Positions 2 through 11,416 of a DNA stretch of 11,416 bases are shown piece by piece. This stretch comes from a bacterium. GTDB taxonomy: Bacteria > UBA9089 > CG2-30-40-21 > SBAY01. The notes beneath the pieces are model-generated. The model made no database searches, was not told the origin of the DNA, and saw only the letters and a program-made list of their open reading frames with translations. Each line of letters opens with the position of its first letter. Position 1 is the first letter of the stretch. The DNA is taken from positions 1 to 11,416 of the forward strand of contig JBFLYA010000122.1 in NCBI GenBank assembly GCA_040757115.1, given 5' to 3'. Position numbers and translations under genes: made by a program.

Positions 2-484
2 GGGACAGTAGGGAGTAAAGTAACTGTTTTTGGTAATGATTTTGCTGGCACAGAAGGGATAGTGATTAGTTTTGGGATAACTCCGAGTATTATTACGAGT
101 ACGACTAATGCCTCTGGAACATTTACAATAGTCTTTACGGTAAATACACAAGCAGGATGTGGGAGTGTAACGATAAAAGTTAAGGGATTAAAATCTAATC
201 TTGAGGTAATGGATAAATTTATGATTTCAGGGAACATTAGTTTGATTACGCCTAATTGTGGAACAGTAGGGAGTATGGTGACTGTCTCTGGCAATGGATT
301 TGGGGCATTGGAGTCAATAACTATTGGATTTGGTATCAATCCTGCGATTACAGTTGTTTCTACCAATGATTATGGGACATTTTCCACAGTCTTTACCGTA
401 GATAAACAGGCGGGATGTGGCACGGTAACGGTTAGTGCCAAAGGCAGTCATTGTGAGGCATTTAGTAAGTTTGTGATTTTGCCA
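2..484 (+). other. Two diverged IPT/TIG-like modules leading into the array
   Basis: Bases 2-232 encode most of one IPT-like module (77 aa visible, first residues outside the window). Bases 233-484 encode a second of exactly 84 aa. Both keep the family pattern GTVGxxVTVxGxxF followed by an I-I-x-FG strand and FTVxxQAGCG. The first module has the Cys of AGCG but lacks the later SHCEA Cys. The second is a hybrid: its first half is diverged (with an extra Cys in PNCGTVG), while from about base 389 it is nearly identical to the amplified units. Unit 0 (233-484) also ends in AFSKF, a variant shared only with unit 2. These are old copies from which the array probably grew. Confidence 0.85.
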
Positions 485-3400
485 AGGATAATTGAGGTTA
501 ATCCGTCATCAGGCACAGTTGGGACTTCGGTAACCGTAAGTGGCGATGGATTTGGGGCAAATGAGGAGATAGTCATAGATTTTGGTGTCAATCCAAGTAT
601 AACCACAACGCAAACAGATGGGCAGGGTGGATTTATTGTTGTCTTTACCGTAGATAAGCAGGCAGGATGTGGCACAGTAACGGTTAGTGCCAAAGGCAGT
701 CATTGTGAGGCATATAGTCCGTTTGTGATTTTGCCAAGGATAATTGAGGTTAATCCGTCATCAGGCACAGTTGGGAGTTCGGTCACTGTGAGTGGCGATG
801 GATTTGGTGCAAATGAGAAAATAGTCATAGATTTTGGTGTCAATCCAAGTATAGCCACAACCCAGACAGATGGCCAGGGTGGATTTAGTGTCATATTTAC
901 CGTAGATAAGCAGGCGGGATGTGGCACAGTAACGGTTAGTGCCAAAGGCAGTCATTGTGAGGCATTTAGTAAGTTTGTGATTTTGCCGAGGATAATTGAG
1001 GTTAATCCGTCATCAGGCACAGTTGGGACTTCGGTAACTGTGAGTGGCGATGGATTTGGTGCAAATGAGAAAATAGTCATAGATTTTGGTGTCAATCCAA
1101 GTATAGCCACAACCCAGACAGATGGCCAGGGTGGATTTAGTGTCATATTTACCGTAGATAAGCAGGCGGGATGTGGCACGGTAACGGTTAGTGCCAGAGG
1201 CAGTCATTGTGAGGCATATAGTCCGTTTGTGATTTTGCCAAGGATAATTGAGGTTAATCCGTCATCAGGCACAGTGGGGACTTCGGTAACCGTGAGTGGC
1301 GATGGATTTGGGGCAAATGAAGTAATAATCATAGATTTTGGTGTCAATCCGAATATAGCCACAACCCAGACAGATGGCCAGGGTGGATTTATTGTTGTCT
1401 TTACCGTAGATAAACAGGCTGGATGCGGCACGGTAACGGTTAGTGCCAGAGGCAGTCATTGTGAGGCATATAGTCCGTTTGTGATTTTGCCAAGGATAAT
1501 TGCGGTTAATCCGTCATCAGGCACAGTGGGAACTTCGGTAACTGTGAATGGCGATGGATTTGGGGCAAATGAAGTAATAATCATAGATTTTGGTGTCAAT
1601 CCAAGTATAGCCACAACGCAGACAGATGGCCAGGGTGGATTTATCGTTGTCTTTACCGTAGATAAACAGGCAGGATGTGGCACAGTAACGGTTAGTGCCA
1701 AAGGCAGTCATTGTGAGGCATTTAGTCCGTTTGTGATTTTGCCAAGGATAATTGAGGTTAATCCGTCATCAGGCACAGTGGGAACTTCGGTCACTGTGAA
1801 TGGCGATGGATTCGGGGCAAATGAAGTAATAATCATAGATTTTGGTATCAATCCAAGTATAGCCACAACCCAGACAGATGGTGATGGTGGATTTATTGTT
1901 GTCTTTACCGTAGATAAGCAGGCAGGATGTGGCACAGTAACGGTTAGTGCCAAAGGCAGTCATTGTGAGGCATATAGTCCGTTTGTGATTTTGCCAAGGA
2001 TAATTGAGGTTAATCCGTCATCAGGCACAGTTGGGAGTTCAGTAACCGTGAGTGGCGACGGATTTGGGGCAAATGAAGTAATAATCATAGATTTTGGTGT
2101 CAATCCGAGTATAGCCACAACGCAGACAGATGGCGATGGTGGATTTAGTATTGTCTTTACCGTAGATAAGCAGGCGGGATGTGGCACGGTAACGGTTAGT
2201 GCCAAAGGCAGTCATTGTGAGGCATATAGTCCGTTTGTGATTTTGCCGAGGATAATTGCGGTTAATCCGTCATCAGGCACAGTTGGAACTTCGGTCACCG
2301 TGAGTGGCGATGGATTTGGGGCAAATGAAGTAATAATCATAGATTTTGGTATCAATCCAAGTATAGCCACAACCCAGACAGATGGCAAGGGTGGATTTAT
2401 TGTTGTCTTTACGGTAGATAAGCAGGCGGGATGTGGCACAGTAACGGTTAGTGCCAGAGGCAGTCATTGTGAGGCATTTAGTCCGTTTGTGATTTTGCCG
2501 AGGATAATTGCGGTTAATCCGTTATCAGGCACAGTGGGGAGTTCGGTAACTGTGAGTGGCGATGGATTTGGGGCAAATGAAGAGATAGTCATAGATTTAG
2601 GTGTCAATCCGAATATAGCCACAACCCAGACAGATGGCAAGGGTGGATTTATTGTTGTCTTTACGGTAGATAAGCAGGCGGGATGTGGCACAGTGACGGT
2701 TAGTGCCAGAGGCAGTCATTGTGAGGCATATAGTCCGTTTGTGATTTTGCCGAGGATAATTGAGGTTAATCCGTCATCAGGCACAGTGGGGAGTTCGGTA
2801 ACTGTGAATGGCGATGGATTTGGGGCAAATGAAGTAATAATCATAGATTTTGGTGTCAATCCAAGTATAGCCACAACGCAGACAGATGGCAAGGGTGGAT
2901 TTATTGTTGTCTTTACGGTAGATAAGCAGGCGGGATGTGGCACGGTAACGGTTAGTGCCAGAGGCAGTCATTGTGAGGCATATAGTCCGTTTGTGATTTT
3001 GCCAAGGATAATTGAGGTTAATCCGTCATCAGGCACAGTGGGGAGTTCGGTAACGGTGAATGGCGATGGATTTGGGGCAAATGAGGAGATAGTCATAGAT
3101 TTAGGTGTCAATCCGAATATAGCCACAACGCAGACAGATGGCAAGGGTGGATTTATTGTTGTCTTTACCGTAGATAAGCAGGCGGGATGTGGCACGGTGA
3201 CGGTTAGTGCCAGAGGCAGTCATTGTGAGGCATTTAGTCCGTTTGTGATTTTGCCAGGGATAATTGGGGTTAATCCGTCATCAGGCACAGTGGGAACTTC
3301 GGTAACGGTGAATGGCGATGGATTTGGGGCAAATGAAGTAATAATCATAGATTTTGGTGTCAATCCAAGTATAGCCATAACGCAGACAGATGGCCAGGGT

Positions 3401-6400
3401 GGATTTATTGTTGTCTTTACCGTAGATAAGCAGGCAGGATGTGGCACAGTAACGGTTAGTGCCAGAGGCAGTCATTGTGAGGCATATAGTCCGTTTGTGA
3501 TTTTGCCAAGGATAATTGGGGTTAATCCGTCATCAGGCACAGTGGGAACTTCGGTAACTGTGAATGGCGATGGATTTGGGGCAAATGAAGTAATAATCAT
3601 AGATTTTGGTGTCAATCCAAGTATAGCCACAACGCAGACAGATGGCCAGGGTGGATTTAGTATTGTCTTTACCGTAGATAAGCAGGCGGGATGTGGCACA
3701 GTAACGGTTAGTGCCAGAGGCAGTCATTGTGAGGCATTTAGTCCGTTTGTGATTTTGCCAAGGATAATTGAGGTTAATCCGTCATCAGGCACAGTTGGGA
3801 GTTCAGTAACCGTGAGTGGCGATGGATTTGGGGCAAATGAAGTAATAACCATAGATTTTGGTGTCAATCCAAGTATAGCCACAACGCAGACAGATGGCCA
3901 GGGTGGATTTATTGTTGTCTTTACCGTAGATAAGCAGGCAGGATGTGGCACAGTAACGGTTAGTGCCAGAGGCAGTCATTGTGAGGCATATAGTCCGTTT
4001 GTGATTTTGCCGAGGATAATTGAGGTTAATCCGTCATCAGGCACAGTGGGGAGTTCGGTAACCGTGAGTGGCGATGGATTTGGGGCAAATGAAGTAATAA
4101 TCATAGATTTTGGTGTCAATCCAAGTATAGCCACAACCCAGACAGATGGCCAGGGTGGATTTAGTGTTGTCTTTACGGTAGATAAGCAGGCGGGATGCGG
4201 CACAGTAACGGTTAGTGCCAGAGGCAGTCATTGTGAGGCATATAGTCCGTTTGTGATTTTGCCGAGGATAATTGAGGTTAATCCGTCATCAGGCACGATA
4301 GGAACCGTGATAACAGTAAGCGGTAATGGTTTTGGAAGTTTTGATTCGATAATAATTGGTTTTGGGAGAAATCCAACTATTACAACAACGATAAGTGATA
4401 ATTGGGGAGTATTCTCTACTTCCTTTACTATTGATACTCAACCCAGTGGGACTACGACTGTTAAGGCTAAAGGGACACATTGTGAGGCAGAAAGTAGTTT
4501 TCTGCTTATTGCCTCAGACCTATGGCTAAAGAAATCAAATCCTGCCGGTATTTTACGAAGTGGAACATTGACCTACACTATTTCCTACGGTAATAAAGGC
4601 AATTTAGCAATCGGTAGTGTTACTATAACAGATTTGATTGGTACCTCACTTGGAACTTTATCACATACTTATCTCTGGTCTAATTTTGGTACCCCAACTA
4701 TTGTTGATGGTTACTATTTTAGTTGGGATATTGGTACATTGACACCGGGAACAACAGGTATTTTGATATTCAAGATTATACCTGCAAGACAACTTCCTGC
4801 CAGTTCAACTATATACAATACTGTCTGGATTACTACTACTCCAGAAGATTTTGATACAACTAATAATATTGCTACCTGTACTACTCATATCCTACTCATT
4901 GATTTAGTAATCAGTAAATATGGTCCTGCAAAAGTAATTAGTGGCAAAGAGATGATTTATCAGATTAATTATGATAATTGTGGTAATAAAGCAGTTGGAG
5001 ATGTGGTTATTTGTGACACCTTACCAGGAAGTGTAACCTTTGTAAGTAGTTCTGTGACACCAGGTACTTTTACTAATGGAGTCTTAACCTGGGAGATAGG
5101 AACAGTTACACCATGGAGTCATGGCAGTTTTACCATAACTGTAAAGGTAGATGATTTAGATGGTTCAATGACCTTGACCAATGTAGTGAAGATTATCTCT
5201 ACCTCTACTGTGGATAATAATCCTGATAATAATCAGGCTACCTGGACAACCCATGTGACAAAACCTATACTGGATTTATGGATTGAAAAGAAAGGACCAC
5301 AAGAAATCGTCTCAGGAGACCTTATCACTTATCAGATTAGTTATGATAACTCAGGTAATACCCCTGCGGGTAATGTAATTATTAAAGATGTACTTCCTAA
5401 ATTTACAAATTATGCAACTAATACTGTTTTAGGCACTCCTACAATTACTTATGGAACACTTACTATTCTCGAATGGAATATAGGTACAGTTTCCCCTGCA
5501 AGTTATGGATACTTTGAATTAACAGTAAAGACAGTAAAAGAAAGTGAAGAGGTGACTAATATAACTAATGTAATTGAGATTAGTACTTCAACCATCGAGA
5601 GTAATTTTGCTAATAATCGTGCTACATGGACTACAAAACTTATATCAAAAGAGATTGATTTAGAAATCTACAAGCAATCTGCAAAAGATGAAATACCTGC
5701 GGGTGAGGAGATGATGTATTATATTAAATATCGTAATTTGAGCAATATCACTGTTACAGGTGTAATGATTACTGATGTACTTCCTGGTAGTGTAACCTTT
5801 GTTTCAAGCACACCAGTTCCGAGTGGCACTTCAGCACAAGGCTTAATATGGAATATTGGGACGATTAGTGCAGGGTATGAAGGATATATTGATTTGAAGG
5901 TAAGGATAGGAGCGGATATACCTGCTTCTAAGACATTAACTAATGTTGCTACGATTACCTGTGACTATAAAGATGGTGATATTACCAACAATCTGGCTAC
6001 TGCGACTACTCATGTTATAACTCCAATAGCTAATATGGTAGTTAGAAAATATGGAATAATAGAAGTGGCTGCAGGAGAGGAGATGGAATATCAAATATTA
6101 TATTATAACCAGGGTAATGCAACTGCAAAAGATGTATCTATGCGTGATATTCTGCCGACAGGAGTAACTTATGCTACTGATACAAGCGGTATTAAGGCTA
6201 CTGTTACTGGTACAGAGGTTAGTTGGAACATAGGCTCAGTACCACCAGGTACTGGTAGTCAATTTACTATGATTGTTTTAGTTGGTACTTCTACATTAGG
6301 TACTTTGACCAATGTAGTTGAAATTTATCAGAAAGGGACATTGAACAGTCGTGCTACATGGACTACACAGAGCTACTTAGCAGAAGTTGATTTGAGTATA

Positions 6401-9400
6401 TATAAATGTTCACCAGAGGAGGTTAAACCGGGTGAAGAATTGAGTTATTGGATAAATTATGCTAATAATGGAAATGTAGAGGCGGGAAGTGTTACTATTA
6501 ATGATATATTGTCTGAAGATGTAGAATTTGTAAACAGTAGTCTGGGTACTCCTACTACTATCAATAATAACAAATTAACATGGAATATAAATACAATTCC
6601 ACCAGGTTCACATAGCTCTTTTATACTCAAGGTAAAGGTAAAAGATGATGTTCCTGGGTCTACTACTTTGATTAATGTAGTTGAAATTGCATTTGTAGGT
6701 ACTGATACTGATTATACTAATAATCGTGCAACTGTAACTACACATGTAGTTGTCCCAGCAATTGATTTGATGATTCGTAAATTTGTACCTTCTTCTGCAG
6801 CTCCTGCTCAGATATTAACTTATGATATTTCATACCGCAATATAGGCAATGCACAGGCTACTAATGTAATTATTACAGATATTTTACCTGAAGGTGTACA
6901 ATATGCAACGGATACGAGTGGTCTACCAGTAGATATTCAACCAGGAGTAATCACATGGCAGGTAGGGATTTTACCTAAATCATATTTATGGAAATCATTT
7001 AAGATGAGTGTTTTGGTAGGAGATTTACCAGCTTCTACTACACTAACTAATGTCATCAAGATTGATGGCTGGGGTGATGAAATTAATCCTGTAAATAATC
7101 AGGCAACGGTGACCACTCATATTACCAGACCTGTCACTGACTTAAAGATTCATAAGAAAGGTAATAAACAGGTTATTGCAGGAGATGAGATAATTTATGA
7201 TATTGGGTATAGAAATATTGGCAATATCCCGGCCCTGGATGTAAAGATTATTGATACCTTGCCTGCAGGGGTAAGTTATGCCACAGATACAAGTGGATTT
7301 CCATTGATTATTACAGGAAATAGGCTTACCTGGTTGGTGGGAACATTAGCGAGTAGTGGTGGTGGCAGATTCAGATTAATTGCTGATGTCCACCCGGAAA
7401 TACAAGGTTCATCTTCGCTGACTAATTTAATTGAAATTACCTCTATTACCAATGAGGAAAACCTGAGTGATAATCAGAGCACATGGACAACTCATGTTGT
7501 TCCTCCAATAATTGATTTAAGGGTATATAAATGGGGTCCAAAGAAGGTCACCAGCGGTAAAAAAATTAAGTATAGAATTAATTATGGTAATAATGGAAAT
7601 GTTGAGGTAAGGAATGTCCATCTTATTGATACCCTACCTGAAGGAGTAGATTTTGTTGCGGATGATAGCGGGTTACCATACACGATTATTGGCAGAGAAG
7701 TTAAGTGGGAAATAACAAGTTTGCCAAAACATACACACCGGACATTTATATTAATTGGGCGAGTAAGTGGTGTCGCGGCTTCTTCGACTTTATCTAATAA
7801 AATTGAGATTACTCTATTACCACAAGATATTAGACCAGAGAATAATTCTTTTATCGTTAGAACACATGTTGTTGACCCACGGGCAGACCTGATTATTCGT
7901 AAACAGGGCACTGGAGCAAGACCTGGACATGAAAAGACTTATTATATTACCTACTGGAATGATGGAACAGCTCGTGCCGATAATCTCAGAATTGTTGATT
8001 ATTTACCTCGTGAAGTAATCTATGTTTCCAGCTCTCCTGAAGCCAGTTATGATTCTATAAATCACACGGTCTCGTGGAATATCCCTGCATTAGAACCTGA
8101 TGAGCTGGGTAATTGCCAGATAAAGGTTAATGTCCTGACAAATCTTGAGCCGGGAACTCAATTACGCAATGAAGTGGTAATTACAACAACGACACCTGAA
8201 AGTAATTATAAGAATAATAAAGATATCGATACTGAACCAATAGTGAGTGCGGTTGACCCGAATGATAAATTAGTCAGCCCACAGTGGTATGTTGGTGGTG
8301 GTGGTGAATTAAATTATAAGATTAGATTTGAGAATGTGCCCGTAGAATATGGAACACATGCTATAGATATTACCATTACCGATAATCTTGATACAATATT
8401 TGACCGCTCAACATTACAATGGGGTGAAATAAGTGTTGGAGAAGGGACATATACCGTAGAAAATTACAATCGTGGCTCACTTACTTATAGTTATGACCAG
8501 ACAACCGGTTTAATAAGATGGGAATTTAAAGGGATAAACCTTATGCCCAATACTACACCGCCTGTTGGAGAAGGATATGTTAGTTTCAAGGTCAAAGCGA
8601 CTAATACCCTTTCTTCCGGCACAGAAGTTAGAAATAAAGCCAGTATTATCTTTGATTTTGCTGACCCAATAGAAACACCAACCTCAACAACAGTAGTTGA
8701 CCTTAATGTGCCGAGTTCAAAAGTTAATACCTTATCGCCATATCAGACTTCAACAACATTCCTGGTAAGCTGGATTGGACAGGATACAGTGGGCACAATA
8801 AGTTACTACACGATTTATGTCTCTGAAAACAATGGGTCGTATACCTGCTGGTTAAATGGCACAAGGGCAGTTTCTGCGGACTTTAAAGGTGTGTATGGCA
8901 ATAGCTATGCGTTTTATAGTCTTGCCGAGGATACTGTCTGGCAAGTGGAATCACCACCTGCTCAACCAGATGCCCGAACAATTATCTCACCATTATCTTA
9001 CTTTAGATTTGCAACATTATCTGTTACCTCAATCTATAGTGGTGGAACGGTAGCGGTGACGCTTACCGCTTGTGAGGCTGATGGTACACCAATTGATACC
9101 TTCAACGGCACAGTAATATTACAAGATAAGGTTGGTTACCTGCAAGAGATAATATTTAACGGCACAAGCACGAGAAATGTGGTTGTTACCATACCGCAAT
9201 CGCCAAATGCTGGAACAGATACGATATTTGCTTACTTTGAGAATCAAATAAGAGGAACAAGCTCATCATTCTTAGTCCTCATAAATAAAGATACCGGTGG
9301 AACTGTAACGCTTACCACCGCTATTGGCACAAGGAGGGTTGAACTGGGAACATTTACCGAAGATTTTTACATTACCATTAATCCCAGCCCGGCGGGCGTA

Positions 9401-10006
9401 AATATTCCAGAAAATGGACTTGCCACCTCTATTAGTGAAATTACTATGTATGGCACGGCGGGGAATTTACTCACAGGTAGTTTATCCGTATATCTTGAAA
9501 TCCCATATTTAGATGCTGACGAGGATGGTGTTGTAGATGGAACAGCAATAGATGAAGATAGTTTGAGGTTACATATCTTCCGCGATAATAACTGGTGGAT
9601 AACTGATAATTCAGGTGTGGATACTACACGAAATGTAGTCTATGGCCAGGCTAATTCTCTTTCAATCTTCATTCCTATTGGCACATCTGTTGCTCCGGAG
9701 ACACTGGGGAAGGTCTCTGTTTATCCTAATCCATTCAAGCCAAATAGCGATTTAGGACATACACACATTACCTTTGGCGCCAAAAATGACTTAAGTCGAA
9801 GATTGACCAGGTATGCCACGATTAAGATATACGATATATCAGGAGAATTAATCAGAACATTAGAGGTAGTCCCGGGAGATAAGGGACAAAAGATATGGCT
9901 TGCAGATAACGATAGCGGTCAGAAGATAGCCAGTGGCATCTACATCTACCTCATTACCAATCCACAAGGGGAAAAATGTATCGGTAAACTGGCGATTGTT
10001 AGATAA
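2..10006 (+). CDS. Giant modular surface/secreted protein, 5'-partial (IPT-like array, DUF11 repeats, sorting-like tail)
   Basis: The frame is open from base 2 to the TAA at 10004-10006, giving 3334 visible residues. The GTG at 62 is not a credible start, because bases 2-61 already encode the conserved GTVGSKVTVFGN part of an IPT-like module, so the start and any signal peptide lie upstream. Visible order by residue: two diverged IPT-like modules (1-161), fifteen near-identical 84-aa units (162-1421), one diverged unit (1422-1504), ten DUF11-type modules (1506-2751), a DPNDK module (2752-2900), an FN3-like module (2904-2993), an unassigned beta-rich region (2994-3236) and a C-terminal FlgD-Ig/type A sorting-like domain (3237-3334). 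All recognisable modules are beta-sandwich types, so it is probably a long stalk or fibre outside the cell. No enzymatic motif is seen, and an adhesin or surface-layer role is inference. The array is visibly more GC-rich than the DUF11 part. I am sure of the coding frame and architecture, not of the function. Confidence 0.95.
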   Translation, partial: GTVGSKVTVFGNDFAGTEGIVISFGITPSIITSTTNASGTFTIVFTVNTQAGCGSVTIKVKGLKSNLEVMDKFMISGNISLITPNCGTVGSMVTVSGNGFGALESITIGFGINPAITVVSTNDYGTFSTVFTVDKQAGCGTVTVSAKGSHCEAFSKFVILPRIIEVNPSSGTVGTSVTVSGDGFGANEEIVIDFGVNPSITTTQTDGQGGFIVVFTVDKQAGCGTVTVSAKGSHCEAYSPFVILPRIIEVNPSSGTVGSSVTVSGDGFGANEKIVIDFGVNPSIATTQTDGQGGFSVIFTVDKQAGCGTVTVSAKGSHCEAFSKFVILPRIIEVNPSSGTVGTSVTVSGDGFGANEKIVIDFGVNPSIATTQTDGQGGFSVIFTVDKQAGCGTVTVSARGSHCEAYSPFVILPRIIEVNPSSGTVGTSVTVSGDGFGANEVIIIDFGVNPNIATTQTDGQGGFIVVFTVDKQAGCGTVTVSARGSHCEAYSPFVILPRIIAVNPSSGTVGTSVTVNGDGFGANEVIIIDFGVNPSIATTQTDGQGGFIVVFTVDKQAGCGTVTVSAKGSHCEAFSPFVILPRIIEVNPSSGTVGTSVTVNGDGFGANEVIIIDFGINPSIATTQTDGDGGFIVVFTVDKQAGCGTVTVSAKGSHCEAYSPFVILPRIIEVNPSSGTVGSSVTVSGDGFGANEVIIIDFGVNPSIATTQTDGDGGFSIVFTVDKQAGCGTVTVSAKGSHCEAYSPFVILPRIIAVNPSSGTVGTSVTVSGDGFGANEVIIIDFGINPSIATTQTDGKGGFIVVFTVDKQAGCGTVTVSARGSHCEAFSPFVILPRIIAVNPLSGTVGSSVTVSGDGFGANEEIVIDLGVNPNIATTQTDGKGGFIVVFTVDKQAGCGTVTVSARGSHCEAYSPFVILPRIIEVNPSSGTVGSSVTVNGDGFGANEVIIIDFGVNPSIATTQTDGKGGFIVVFTVDKQAGCGTVTVSARGSHCEAYSPFVILPRIIEVNPSSGTVGSSVTVNGDGFGANEEIVIDLGVNPNIATTQTDGKGGFIVVFTVDKQAGCGTVTVSARGSHCEAFSPFVILPGIIGVNPSSGTVGTSVTVNGDGFGANEVIIIDFGVNPSIAITQTDGQGGFIVVFTVDKQAGCGTVTVSARGSHCEAYSPFVILPRIIGVNPSSGTVGTSVTVNGDGFGANEVIIIDFGVNPSIATTQTDGQGGFSIVFTVDKQAGCGTVTVSARGSHCEAFSPFVILPRIIEVNPSSGTVGSSVTVSGDGFGANEVITIDFGVNPSIATTQTDGQGGFIVVFTVDKQAGCGTVTVSARGSHCEAYSPFVILPRIIEVNPSSGTVGSSVTVSGDGFGANEVIIIDFGVNPSIATTQTDGQGGFSVVFTVDKQAGCGTVTVSARGSHCEAYSPFVILPRIIEVNPSSGTIGTVITVSGNGFGSFDSIIIGFGRNPTITTTISDNWGVFSTSFTIDTQPSGTTTVKAKGTHCEAESSFLLIASDLWLKKSNPAGILRSGTLTYTISYGNKGNLAIGSVTITDLIGTSLGTLSHTYLWSNFGTPTIVDGYYFSWDIGTLTPGTTGILIFKIIPARQLPASSTIYNTVWITTTPEDFDTTNNIATCTTHILLIDLVISKYGPAKVISGKEMIYQINYDNCGNKAVGDVVICDTLPGSVTFVSSSVTPGTFTNGVLTWEIGTVTPWSHGSFTITVKVDDLDGSMTLTNVVKIISTSTVDNNPDNNQATWTTHVTKPILDLWIEKKGPQEIVSGDLITYQISYDNSGNTPAGNVIIKDVLPKFTNYATNTVLGTPTITYGTLTILEWNIGTVSPASYGYFELTVKTVKESEEVTNITNVIEISTSTIESNFANNRATWTTKLISKEIDLEIYKQSAKDEIPAGEEMMYYIKYRNLSNITVTGVMITDVLPGSVTFVSSTPVPSGTSAQGLIWNIGTISAGYEGYIDLKVRIGADIPASKTLTNVATITCDYKDGDITNNLATATTHVITPIANMVVRKYGIIEVAAGEEMEYQILYYNQGNATAKDVSMRDILPTGVTYATDTSGIKATVTGTEVSWNIGSVPPGTGSQFTMIVLVGTSTLGTLTNVVEIYQKGTLNSRATWTTQSYLAEVDLSIYKCSPEEVKPGEELSYWINYANNGNVEAGSVTINDILSEDVEFVNSSLGTPTTINNNKLTWNINTIPPGSHSSFILKVKVKDDVPGSTTLINVVEIAFVGTDTDYTNNRATVTTHVVVPAIDLMIRKFVPSSAAPAQILTYDISYRNIGNAQATNVIITDILPEGVQYATDTSGLPVDIQPGVITWQVGILPKSYLWKSFKMSVLVGDLPASTTLTNVIKIDGWGDEINPVNNQATVTTHITRPVTDLKIHKKGNKQVIAGDEIIYDIGYRNIGNIPALDVKIIDTLPAGVSYATDTSGFPLIITGNRLTWLVGTLASSGGGRFRLIADVHPEIQGSSSLTNLIEITSITNEENLSDNQSTWTTHVVPPIIDLRVYKWGPKKVTSGKKIKYRINYGNNGNVEVRNVHLIDTLPEGVDFVADDSGLPYTIIGREVKWEITSLPKHTHRTFILIGRVSGVAASSTLSNKIEITLLPQDIRPENNSFIVRTHVVDPRADLIIRKQGTGARPGHEKTYYITYWNDGTARADNLRIVDYLPREVIYVSSSPEASYDSINHTVSWNIPALEPDELGNCQIKVNVLTNLEPGTQLRNEVVITTTTPESNYKNNKDIDTEPIVSAVDPNDKLVSPQWYVGGGGELNYKIRFENVPVEYGTHAIDITITDNLDTIFDRSTLQWGEISVGEGTYTVENYNRGSLTYSYDQTTGLIRWEFKGINLMPNTTPPVGEGYVSFKVKATNTLSSGTEVRNKASIIFDFADPIETPTSTTVVDLNVPSSKVNTLSPYQTSTTFLVSWIGQDTVGTISYYTIYVSENNGSYTCWLNGTRAVSADFKGVYGNSYAFYSLAEDTVWQVESPPAQPDARTIISPLSYFRFATLSVTSIYSGGTVAVTLTACEADGTPIDTFNGTVILQDKVGYLQEIIFNGTSTRNVVVTIPQSPNAGTDTIFAYFENQIRGTSSSFLVLINKDTGGTVTLTTAIGTRRVELGTFTEDFYITINPSPAGVNIPENGLATSISEITMYGTAGNLLTGSLSVYLEIPYLDADEDGVVDGTAIDEDSLRLHIFRDNNWWITDNSGVDTTRNVVYGQANSLSIFIPIGTSVAPETLGKVSVYPNPFKPNSDLGHTHITFGAKNDLSRRLTRYATIKIYDISGELIRTLEVVPGDKGQKIWLADNDSGQKIASGIYIYLITNPQGEKCIGKLAIVR
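485..4264 (+). repeat. Fifteen near-identical 252-bp coding tandem repeats (84-aa IPT-like units)
   Basis: Fifteen units begin every 252 bp at 485, 737, 989 and so on to 4013, without a single indel. Each encodes 84 aa starting RII(E/A/G)VNP, then SGTVG(T/S)SVTV, GDGFGANE, a variable (E/K/V)I(V/I)ID(F/L)G strand, NP(S/N)I, TQTDG(Q/D/K)GGF, FTVDKQAGCGTVTVSA, GSHCEA and FVILP. This fits the IPT/TIG-type Ig fold. Each unit has exactly two Cys, at unit positions 62 and 74. Differences are confined to a handful of positions combined in mosaic fashion, which points to recent amplification with unequal crossing-over or gene conversion. The near-identical DNA block actually runs from about 389 to 4296, roughly 15.5 units, and so is out of register with the protein modules. 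Copy number is likely to vary between strains, and the stretch is hard to assemble from short reads. Confidence 0.97.
4265..4513 (+). other. Diverged terminal IPT-like unit
   Basis: This 83-aa unit starts like the array (RIIEVNPSSGT) but leaves the consensus abruptly at about base 4297. It continues with GFG and NPTITTT strands and ends THCEAESSF. The first Cys of the pair is lost: the AGCGT region reads PSGTT, one residue shorter. The second Cys in HCEA is kept and is therefore unpaired within the module. It caps the array and joins it to the DUF11 block with almost no linker. Confidence 0.85.
4517..8254 (+). other. Ten DUF11-type (conserved repeat domain) modules
   Basis: Ten modules begin with a D-L-x-I-x-K or related strand at 4517, 4901, 5273, 5657, 6029, 6389, 6764, 7139, 7514 and 7886, at spacings of 360-384 bp (120-128 aa). 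Each has the DUF11 pattern: a G-x-x-x-x-Y-x-I-x-Y strand, an N-x-G-N turn, V-x-I-x-D-x-L-P, a W-x-I-G-T-x-x-P strand, a T-L-T-N-V strand, and usually a D-x-N-x-x-N-N loop before A-T-x-T-T-H. Module 5 (6029-6388) is the shortest; its loop is reduced to GTLNSRATWTT, without the acidic DxNxxNN motif. Module 10 is the most diverged at its start (RKQGTGARPG). The copies are clearly related but well diverged at DNA level, unlike the IPT array. DUF11 modules are known from bacterial and archaeal surface proteins, where they act as extended spacers. Confidence 0.9.
8255..8701 (+). other. DPNDK-motif module (DUF7619-like)
   Basis: The module starts with DPNDKLVSP at 8255. It continues with a Gly-rich turn, LNYKIRFENV, an IDITITDNLD strand and an L-x-W-G-x-I segment, and ends with a NKASIIFDFADPIET-type strand at about 8640-8690. 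This is the pattern of the DPNDK module (DUF7619 in my recollection) that often follows DUF11 repeats in secreted proteins of candidate phyla and Bacteroidetes. Its function is unknown; it is probably another beta-sandwich, inserted between the stalk repeats and the C-terminal region. Confidence 0.7.
8711..8980 (+). other. Fibronectin type III-like module
   Basis: About 90 residues start PSSKVNTLSP and contain F-L-V-S-W-I-G-Q-D, ISYYTIYVSENNGSY, WLNGT, a Y-G-N-S-Y-A-F-Y-S-L-A-x-D strand and a closing QPDART. The core W, the YxIYVS strand and the YxFYSxAxD strand are hallmarks of the FN3-like module that commonly follows DPNDK modules. A structural or binding role outside the cell is likely; no ligand can be inferred. 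Confidence 0.75.
8981..9709 (+). other. Unassigned beta-rich region with acidic loop
   Basis: About 243 residues are rich in T, V and I strands. They may form two Ig-like modules, one around SVTSIYSGGTVAVTLTAC to SSFLVLI (9013-9279) and one from 9290 to about 9688. The second contains LDADEDGVVDGTAIDEDSL (loop core 9512-9541), a DxDxDG-type acidic loop that could bind calcium, followed by LRLHIFRDNNWW and a closing SLSIFIPIG strand. Similar stretches often precede FlgD-like tails in candidate-phylum proteins. I do not recognise a named family with confidence. Confidence 0.5.
9710..10003 (+). other. C-terminal FlgD-Ig / type A sorting-like domain
   Basis: The last 98 residues contain KVSVYPNPFKPN (YPNPF at 9722-9736), then IKIYDISGELIRTLE, a G-x-x-x-W strand, ASGIYIYLI and a closing GKLAIVR. 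This order (YPNPF, then a KIYDxxGxxIR strand, then W, then SGxYxY, then K-x-x-V at the end) is shared by FlgD Ig-like domains and the type A sorting domains of type IX secretion substrates. It suggests export and possibly surface anchoring. Whether this host has a type IX system cannot be seen here. Confidence 0.8.
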
Positions 10007-10598: not shown

Positions 10599-11416
10599 AT
10601 GGTGAAAGTATTTAAAATTGCTTTATATTCCTTTATCCTTTGTTTCCTGCCTATTAGTTTAAATGCAACAGATTTGACTTATCAAGCTAAAAAAATATCC
10701 ACTCTTTCTAAACAAGTCCATAAATTATCATCTCAAATTGCCCCAGAAGGCATATTATCCCCGGAGGCAAAGAAGTTAACTAAGGTAATCGAAGATTTAG
10801 AGTTTTCCCTGAAGGCTACTCTAAAAGACATTAAATCTACCCCCCCCTCAATCAATCATCTAAAAAATCTACAAATAAAGATAGCCAGTGTAATACCGCG
10901 ATTAGATTTAATCGACAAAGATGTCCAGATAAAGTTTAAACAGATAGAACAATTAGTTCAGACAAAGGGGTTTGGTGAAGAAGTATTTGCCAGACATAAA
11001 AGTTATGTTAAAGAGTATGATGAGAAACTATCCAGGCTAAAGAGGTATCTAAATGGATTAATTAATCAAACTACGGACATCGAACAACGGATTACGGAAT
11101 TATTAAAGTACATAGAGACAGAGTTAAAGCTAGATAATGTATATCGTCCTGGTCCACAACCTGAACTACCCGAAAGGCGAATGCCACCTGCAGAGCGGAA
11201 ATATGTGTCTATTGAGGAATTAGAGGGATATGAATCTGTTAAACCTCCTGAAGGAAAATTATTTACACAAGAGGAGTTAAACAAGGCACGAGAACAATTA
11301 TCAACGATTAAAACTATACCTGAATTAACTGCACCTACAAAAGGTGATTTAGACGAGACACATGATATTCAGATTACGCAGGAGATTCAGGATTTAGCTG
11401 CCAGTTTAGACCATAA
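10599..11416 (+). CDS. Exported helical protein, 3'-partial; possible N-terminus of a transglutaminase-like protein
   Basis: The frame is open from the ATG at 10599 to the window edge, with 272 residues visible and no stop. Residues 1-23 are a clear signal peptide: positive VKVFK, then a hydrophobic core (IALYSFILCFLPISL) and probable cleavage after LNA. The Cys at residue 15 sits inside the core, not in a lipobox. Residues 28-180 are K/E/L/I-rich and predicted helical, with coiled-coil character strongest at about 130-180. A proline-rich linker follows (VYRPGPQPELPERRMPP, about 181-197), then acidic helices. The final residues, ITQEIQDLAASLDH, resemble the segment that in my recollection precedes the VKIYEYVRNN-type start of bacterial transglutaminase-like domains, so a thiol-protease or cross-linking fold may lie just outside the window; this is inference. 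Eight consecutive C at 10840-10847 encode the TPPS turn. It has its own promoter and is probably not cotranscribed with the giant gene. Confidence 0.9.
   Translation, partial: MVKVFKIALYSFILCFLPISLNATDLTYQAKKISTLSKQVHKLSSQIAPEGILSPEAKKLTKVIEDLEFSLKATLKDIKSTPPSINHLKNLQIKIASVIPRLDLIDKDVQIKFKQIEQLVQTKGFGEEVFARHKSYVKEYDEKLSRLKRYLNGLINQTTDIEQRITELLKYIETELKLDNVYRPGPQPELPERRMPPAERKYVSIEELEGYESVKPPEGKLFTQEELNKAREQLSTIKTIPELTAPTKGDLDETHDIQITQEIQDLAASLDH
10840..10847 (+). repeat. Poly-C tract (C8) inside the second CDS
   Basis: Eight C residues stand out in AT-rich surroundings and span codons 81-83 (T-P-P). Loss or gain of one C would shift the frame early in an exported protein. It may be a contingency (phase-variation) tract or simply a homopolymer prone to sequencing error. 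In the given sequence the frame stays open. Confidence 0.6.

Follow-up and report, generated by a model that had tools for sequence, protein, structure and literature searches.

When the tandem units of a bacterial gene are nearly identical, did the array arise recently, or have old units been kept alike? The question is raised by a window of 11,416 bp (the whole stretch of DNA analysed here), which is the complete contig C122 of a genome of 4.3 Mb in 462 contigs, from a bacterium that, judged by its SprA relatives, belongs to Ca. Desantisbacteria. A preliminary description, made from the window alone, attributed its 252-bp repeat to very recent expansion or continuing homogenisation. Comparing two genomes, together with the parts of the gene that flank the array, is enough to tell 'recent' from 'kept alike', and the best reading of these comparisons is that the array appears to be old and still reshuffled by mosaic exchange between its units.

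Gene architecture and the repeat array

The array is part of an open reading frame of at least 3,334 amino acids on the forward strand (2-10006), which contains all the modules described below on the same strand and has lost its 5′ end at the contig start. Because the contig starts within the gene, neither a signal peptide nor an adhesive domain can be seen. The left end of C122 is not matched identically by any other sequence of the bin, there are no flush overlaps among the contigs of this genome (G000) that were compared, and no whole-protein relatives were confirmed in the search of genome contigs. The frame opens with about 1.5 diverged TIG-like units (2-388; 51% amino-acid identity to the unit, at 131-382), followed by the homogenised array of 15 complete 252-bp units (389-4168), recognised by a PF01833 match and by the repeat finder. 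The first half of a 16th unit is still homogenised (4169-4296; repeat finder and unit alignment), and its second half, with the 3′ edge of the array, is diverged (4297-4516; unit alignment and orthologue comparison). Further downstream are stalk-type DUF11 modules (PF01345/TIGR01451; 4517-8250, outer bounds approximate; 10 stretches, 441 bits), a DUF7619 domain (PF24595; best stretch 8255-8692, 213 bits) and a tail resembling the T9SS type A sorting domain (TIGR04183; 9719-9973). Another gene starts beyond the frame (10599-11414), with a hydrophobic N-terminus, coiled-coil-like sequence and weak SpiroCoCo/SMC matches.

Tandem Repeats Finder placed the tandem array at 389-4296, with a period of 252, 15.5 copies, 94% matches and 0% indels. 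Identity at a lag of 252 is 0.947 in the array versus 0.29 in the remaining gene, and at the other lags from 200 to 299 it is at most 0.33, which excludes chance as an explanation of the 252-bp period. The array of about 15.5 units with exact spacing and without indels, as first described, is borne out by both measures, and its edges are indeed strongly diverged, namely the TIG-like units at 2-388 and, from 4297 on, the remainder of the 16th unit. The accompanying statement that the units differ at only a few positions was too strong. Pairwise DNA identity among the 15 full units is 90.5-96.8%, with a mean pairwise difference of 6.3%, and 48 of the 252 columns are variable; third codon positions account for 27 of the 48. 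At the amino-acid level, the units are 86-98% identical.

Each unit corresponds to one 84-aa IPT/TIG Ig-like domain (a PF01833 match across four units scores 63.9 bits, above the curated cut-off of 20.9) with two cysteines in 15 of 15 units. The cysteine pair, 12 residues apart (QAGCG...GSHCE), recurs in every array unit (485-4264), and one disulfide per array domain is possible. The same pair is missing from those units of a giant TIG-repeat gene (see below) that were inspected. No relatives of the unit were found among the viral contigs searched. An AlphaFold model of two tandem units with window-only rows reached a pLDDT of 36 and is not usable, and for that reason the rod shape considered below is drawn from the TIG family.

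Age of the array

An orthologue of the gene is present on contig C181 of G001, a genome of the same genus. It is collinear with the window 3′ of the array and 96.4% identical there, and the last, diverged unit of the window (the 16th) shares the same 96.4% identity with its terminal counterpart in G001. The array of G001 is the sole orthologous array, and about 6.2 of its full units are covered before the contig ends. Units of the window differ from one another by a mean dS of 0.150 and those of G001 by 0.194, and the two unit sets differ by 0.218, compared with a between-species dS of 0.076 for the remaining gene and 0.040 for SprA. The highest between-species dS in a 600-bp interval, found in the DUF11 region beside the array, is 0.144, so that the age contrast is locally smaller than gene-wide. 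Further, the same alleles segregate in both species at 25 columns, with 0 fixed differences, and more columns are variable in both species than expected, also when only third positions are counted (p=2e-6). Because unit dS is about twice the between-species 0.076 and alleles are shared at 25 columns, the diversity of the units predates the species split, and on these comparisons the array itself is judged to predate the divergence from the closest sampled relative. Shared alleles could also be created by exchange with other strains, not just between units.

These data bear directly on the very recent expansion that had been proposed. A burst of unit duplication that had only just given rise to the array would agree with the exact 252-bp spacing, with an identity that is high relative to the other modules of the gene, and with the slightly greater similarity of neighbouring units. 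However, synonymous divergence between the units is 2-4 times the between-species divergence, and the 25 trans-species polymorphic columns without a fixed difference contradict such an origin. Minor alleles occur in at least two units at 37 of the 48 variable columns, and only 11 columns are singletons, which argues against a fresh burst, since that would leave mostly singletons. We therefore consider it very improbable that the array was born in this way.

Between-species divergence is itself uneven along the gene. The DUF11 region adjoining the array (4898-6698) has a dS of 0.11-0.14, versus 0.02-0.07 further downstream, and exchange with other strains may have raised it.

Exchange between units

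Within 252 bp, the Hudson-Kaplan Rm is 14, i.e. at least 14 recombination events have occurred in the array. The four-gamete test is failed by 239 of 496 site pairs, linkage disequilibrium (LD) falls with distance (p=0.0015), and similarity is greater between adjacent units than between random pairs (p=0.004). With a PHI-like incompatibility test, the signal over 40 bp is suggestive only (p=0.07). When the two species are compared, the units group by genome (label permutation p=0.0002), and mean identity between window and G001 units is at most 92.5% at any register offset. The single closer pair is located at the 3′ edge, where the last full G001 unit is 96.8% identical to a window unit and stays with the window units in the tree. 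Unit-by-unit positional orthology is thus lost, save possibly at the 3′ edge, which perhaps changes more slowly. The PHI-like test apart, these signals, from Rm and the four-gamete failures through LD decay and adjacency to clustering by genome and lost orthology, support the continuing homogenisation that had been offered beside recent expansion.

The dN/dS among units is about 0.27, which places them under purifying selection. Together with the predominance of third codon positions among the variable columns, this value is what might be cited for units that are alike solely through strong purifying selection on each of them, without any exchange. We regard that reading as extremely unlikely, because four-gamete failures, LD decay, lost positional orthology and clustering by genome need exchange, and because the units are alike at synonymous sites too.

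Security of the unit count

The longest exact repeat in the window is 155 bp, and for this reason the assembled count of 15.5 is provisional. In addition, 64 127-mers occur twice. Repeats in short-read assemblies are expected to stop at contig ends, and the arrays of the G001 orthologue, C87, C152, g12 and g179 all do so. The number or order of units could accordingly be a product of assembly, in which reads of a longer or shorter array, or of several strains, were joined; mixed strains would also look mosaic. Against this, the combination of variants differs from unit to unit, and the frame runs unbroken across 10 kb. G001 independently has this type of array with many common alleles, and the paralogous arrays share only about 60% protein identity, which makes confusion with them unlikely. 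An assembly product is thus less probable than a genuine unit order, although we give it appreciable weight.

Probable secretion and the proposed stalk

The sorting-type tail scores 28.4 bits against a cut-off of 23 in the search of its own genome; in a scan of the full-length protein it scores 20.3 bits. The genome has 46 sorting-tail matches, 27 PorV-family proteins above cut-off, an SprA-like protein of 2,011 aa whose match is below the curated cut-off, and PorU-like peptidase regions, also below cut-off. The gene product is probably, to judge from these matches, a long surface protein secreted by the T9SS. The term 'surface fibre' used in the preliminary description is plausible from the combination of TIG and DUF11 modules with a T9SS tail; the modules and the tail are observed, and we infer from them the rod shape, the secretion and the surface position. 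The variation in fibre length among cells or strains that the preliminary description also suggested is a prediction.

Overall, we think it likely that the array is the stalk part of a T9SS-secreted Ca. Desantisbacteria surface protein, old, reshuffled since the species split, and kept alike by in-register exchange. The 15 IPT/TIG domains of 84 aa, followed by the DUF11 domains, would form a rod at the cell surface, which the C-terminal T9SS sorting tail would hold, and the N-terminal part, encoded beyond the contig, would point outwards. With a DNA identity of about 94% between units, in-register homologous recombination would swap pieces between them, and the same recombination would be able to add or remove whole 252-bp units with the frame intact. 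Such exchange of pieces would keep the units alike and their 252-bp spacing exact, in an array that already existed when the nearest sampled relative branched off and has since been reshuffled under purifying selection.

Relation to known systems

Periscope Proteins are recognised operationally by tandem repeats longer than 50 residues that are at least 80% identical (PMC8201768), and examples include SasG, Sgo_0707, Rib/Alpha C and CdrA (PMC8201768, PMC9704523). Their repeats fold one by one into a rod-like stalk, which is anchored at the cell surface, as a rule through the C-terminus, and projects a functional N-terminal domain; the class owes its name to length variation, the number of repeats being different in related strains. 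The window array, with 84-aa units at 86-98% amino-acid identity, falls within this definition. As in Periscope Proteins, domains that probably fold individually are arranged in tandem in a probable surface stalk, and DNA identity is high enough for homologous recombination. The window differs in that its domain is TIG, its tail is of the T9SS type and not LPXTG or autotransporter, its host belongs to an uncultured candidate phylum, and, with the gene cut at its 5′ end and the orthologous array cut by a contig end, neither an N-terminal adhesin nor length variation is seen. By analogy, the window stalk most likely works like a Periscope protein.

Both TIG (PF01833) and DUF11 (PF01345) have been named as stalk domains of fibrillar adhesin-like proteins (PMC9210967), although highly identical repeats are not required there and the window gene, cut at its 5′ end, shows no adhesive domain. 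The giant open reading frames (ORFs) of Omnitrophota (PMC10066038) offer a second comparison, as very long surface-type ORFs of an uncultured phylum; the genus of the window has a giant TIG gene, whereas the window gene itself is moderate in size. Most of the Omnitrophota ORFs have few annotated domains, in contrast to the TIG genes described here, which consist of arrays with a T9SS-like tail. In open-licence literature, at the level of titles and abstracts, we found no report on Desantisbacteria surface proteins that are repetitive or giant. The kind of system is already known, and the organism, the domain and the secretion route are new details; with them, the range of homogenised and recombining stalk arrays now includes proteins of the T9SS type in an uncultured candidate phylum. 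The locus is also a clear case in which high repeat identity does not equal recent origin, and it indicates that 'recent amplification' read from a single sequence can mislead.

Sister arrays and a giant TIG-repeat gene

Paralogous arrays with TIG periods of 252 bp or 771 bp are present in the same genome, including those on C87 (94% match) and C152 (83% match), and further TIG arrays are present in G001. Recognisable N-terminal parts in some of the sister genes include an M23 peptidase (C87, and C343 of genome G003), a squalene-cyclase-like domain (C177) and beta-propeller repeats (C152). On C177 (G000:C177, L012:1540-3044), a block of three units (771 bp) is present twice with a 98% match, and this block is a better candidate for recent duplication than the window array.

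GC content at fourfold sites is 40-50% in the six homogenised arrays measured versus 20-31% in the remainder of those genes. Values of 0.46-0.50 were obtained at 389-4168 of the window, L027:1-1456, L009:7736-8984 and L051:1-802, and values of 0.36-0.39 in less homogenised arrays. One interpretation is that the 252-bp TIG arrays of paralogous T9SS genes are in permanent exchange with GC-biased conversion, and form a dispersed generator of variants in stalk length and sequence. We find this interpretation improbable. The segregating alleles show no GC bias, with frequencies no higher for GC alleles; the raised fourfold GC possibly stems from founder codon choice.

The giant TIG-repeat gene is represented in the genome of the window by a fully open frame of 28,375 codons with 0 stops (G000:C1:1-85129; L018-L022). 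In G001, contigs C1 and C2 (L057-L064) have a flush 127-bp overlap, and the joined frame spans at least 44,562 codons if the graph overlap is a true join. The G000 contigs C1 and C29 (L023-L024) align in order to this joined frame, the matching 5′ start of the gene is found at G000:C25:2-1408 (L025), and the end of C29 encodes a T9SS-like tail. Taken together, these alignments suggest a predicted product of about 45,800 aa overall. Other genomes of the order contain open frames of 18,588 and 19,075 aa.
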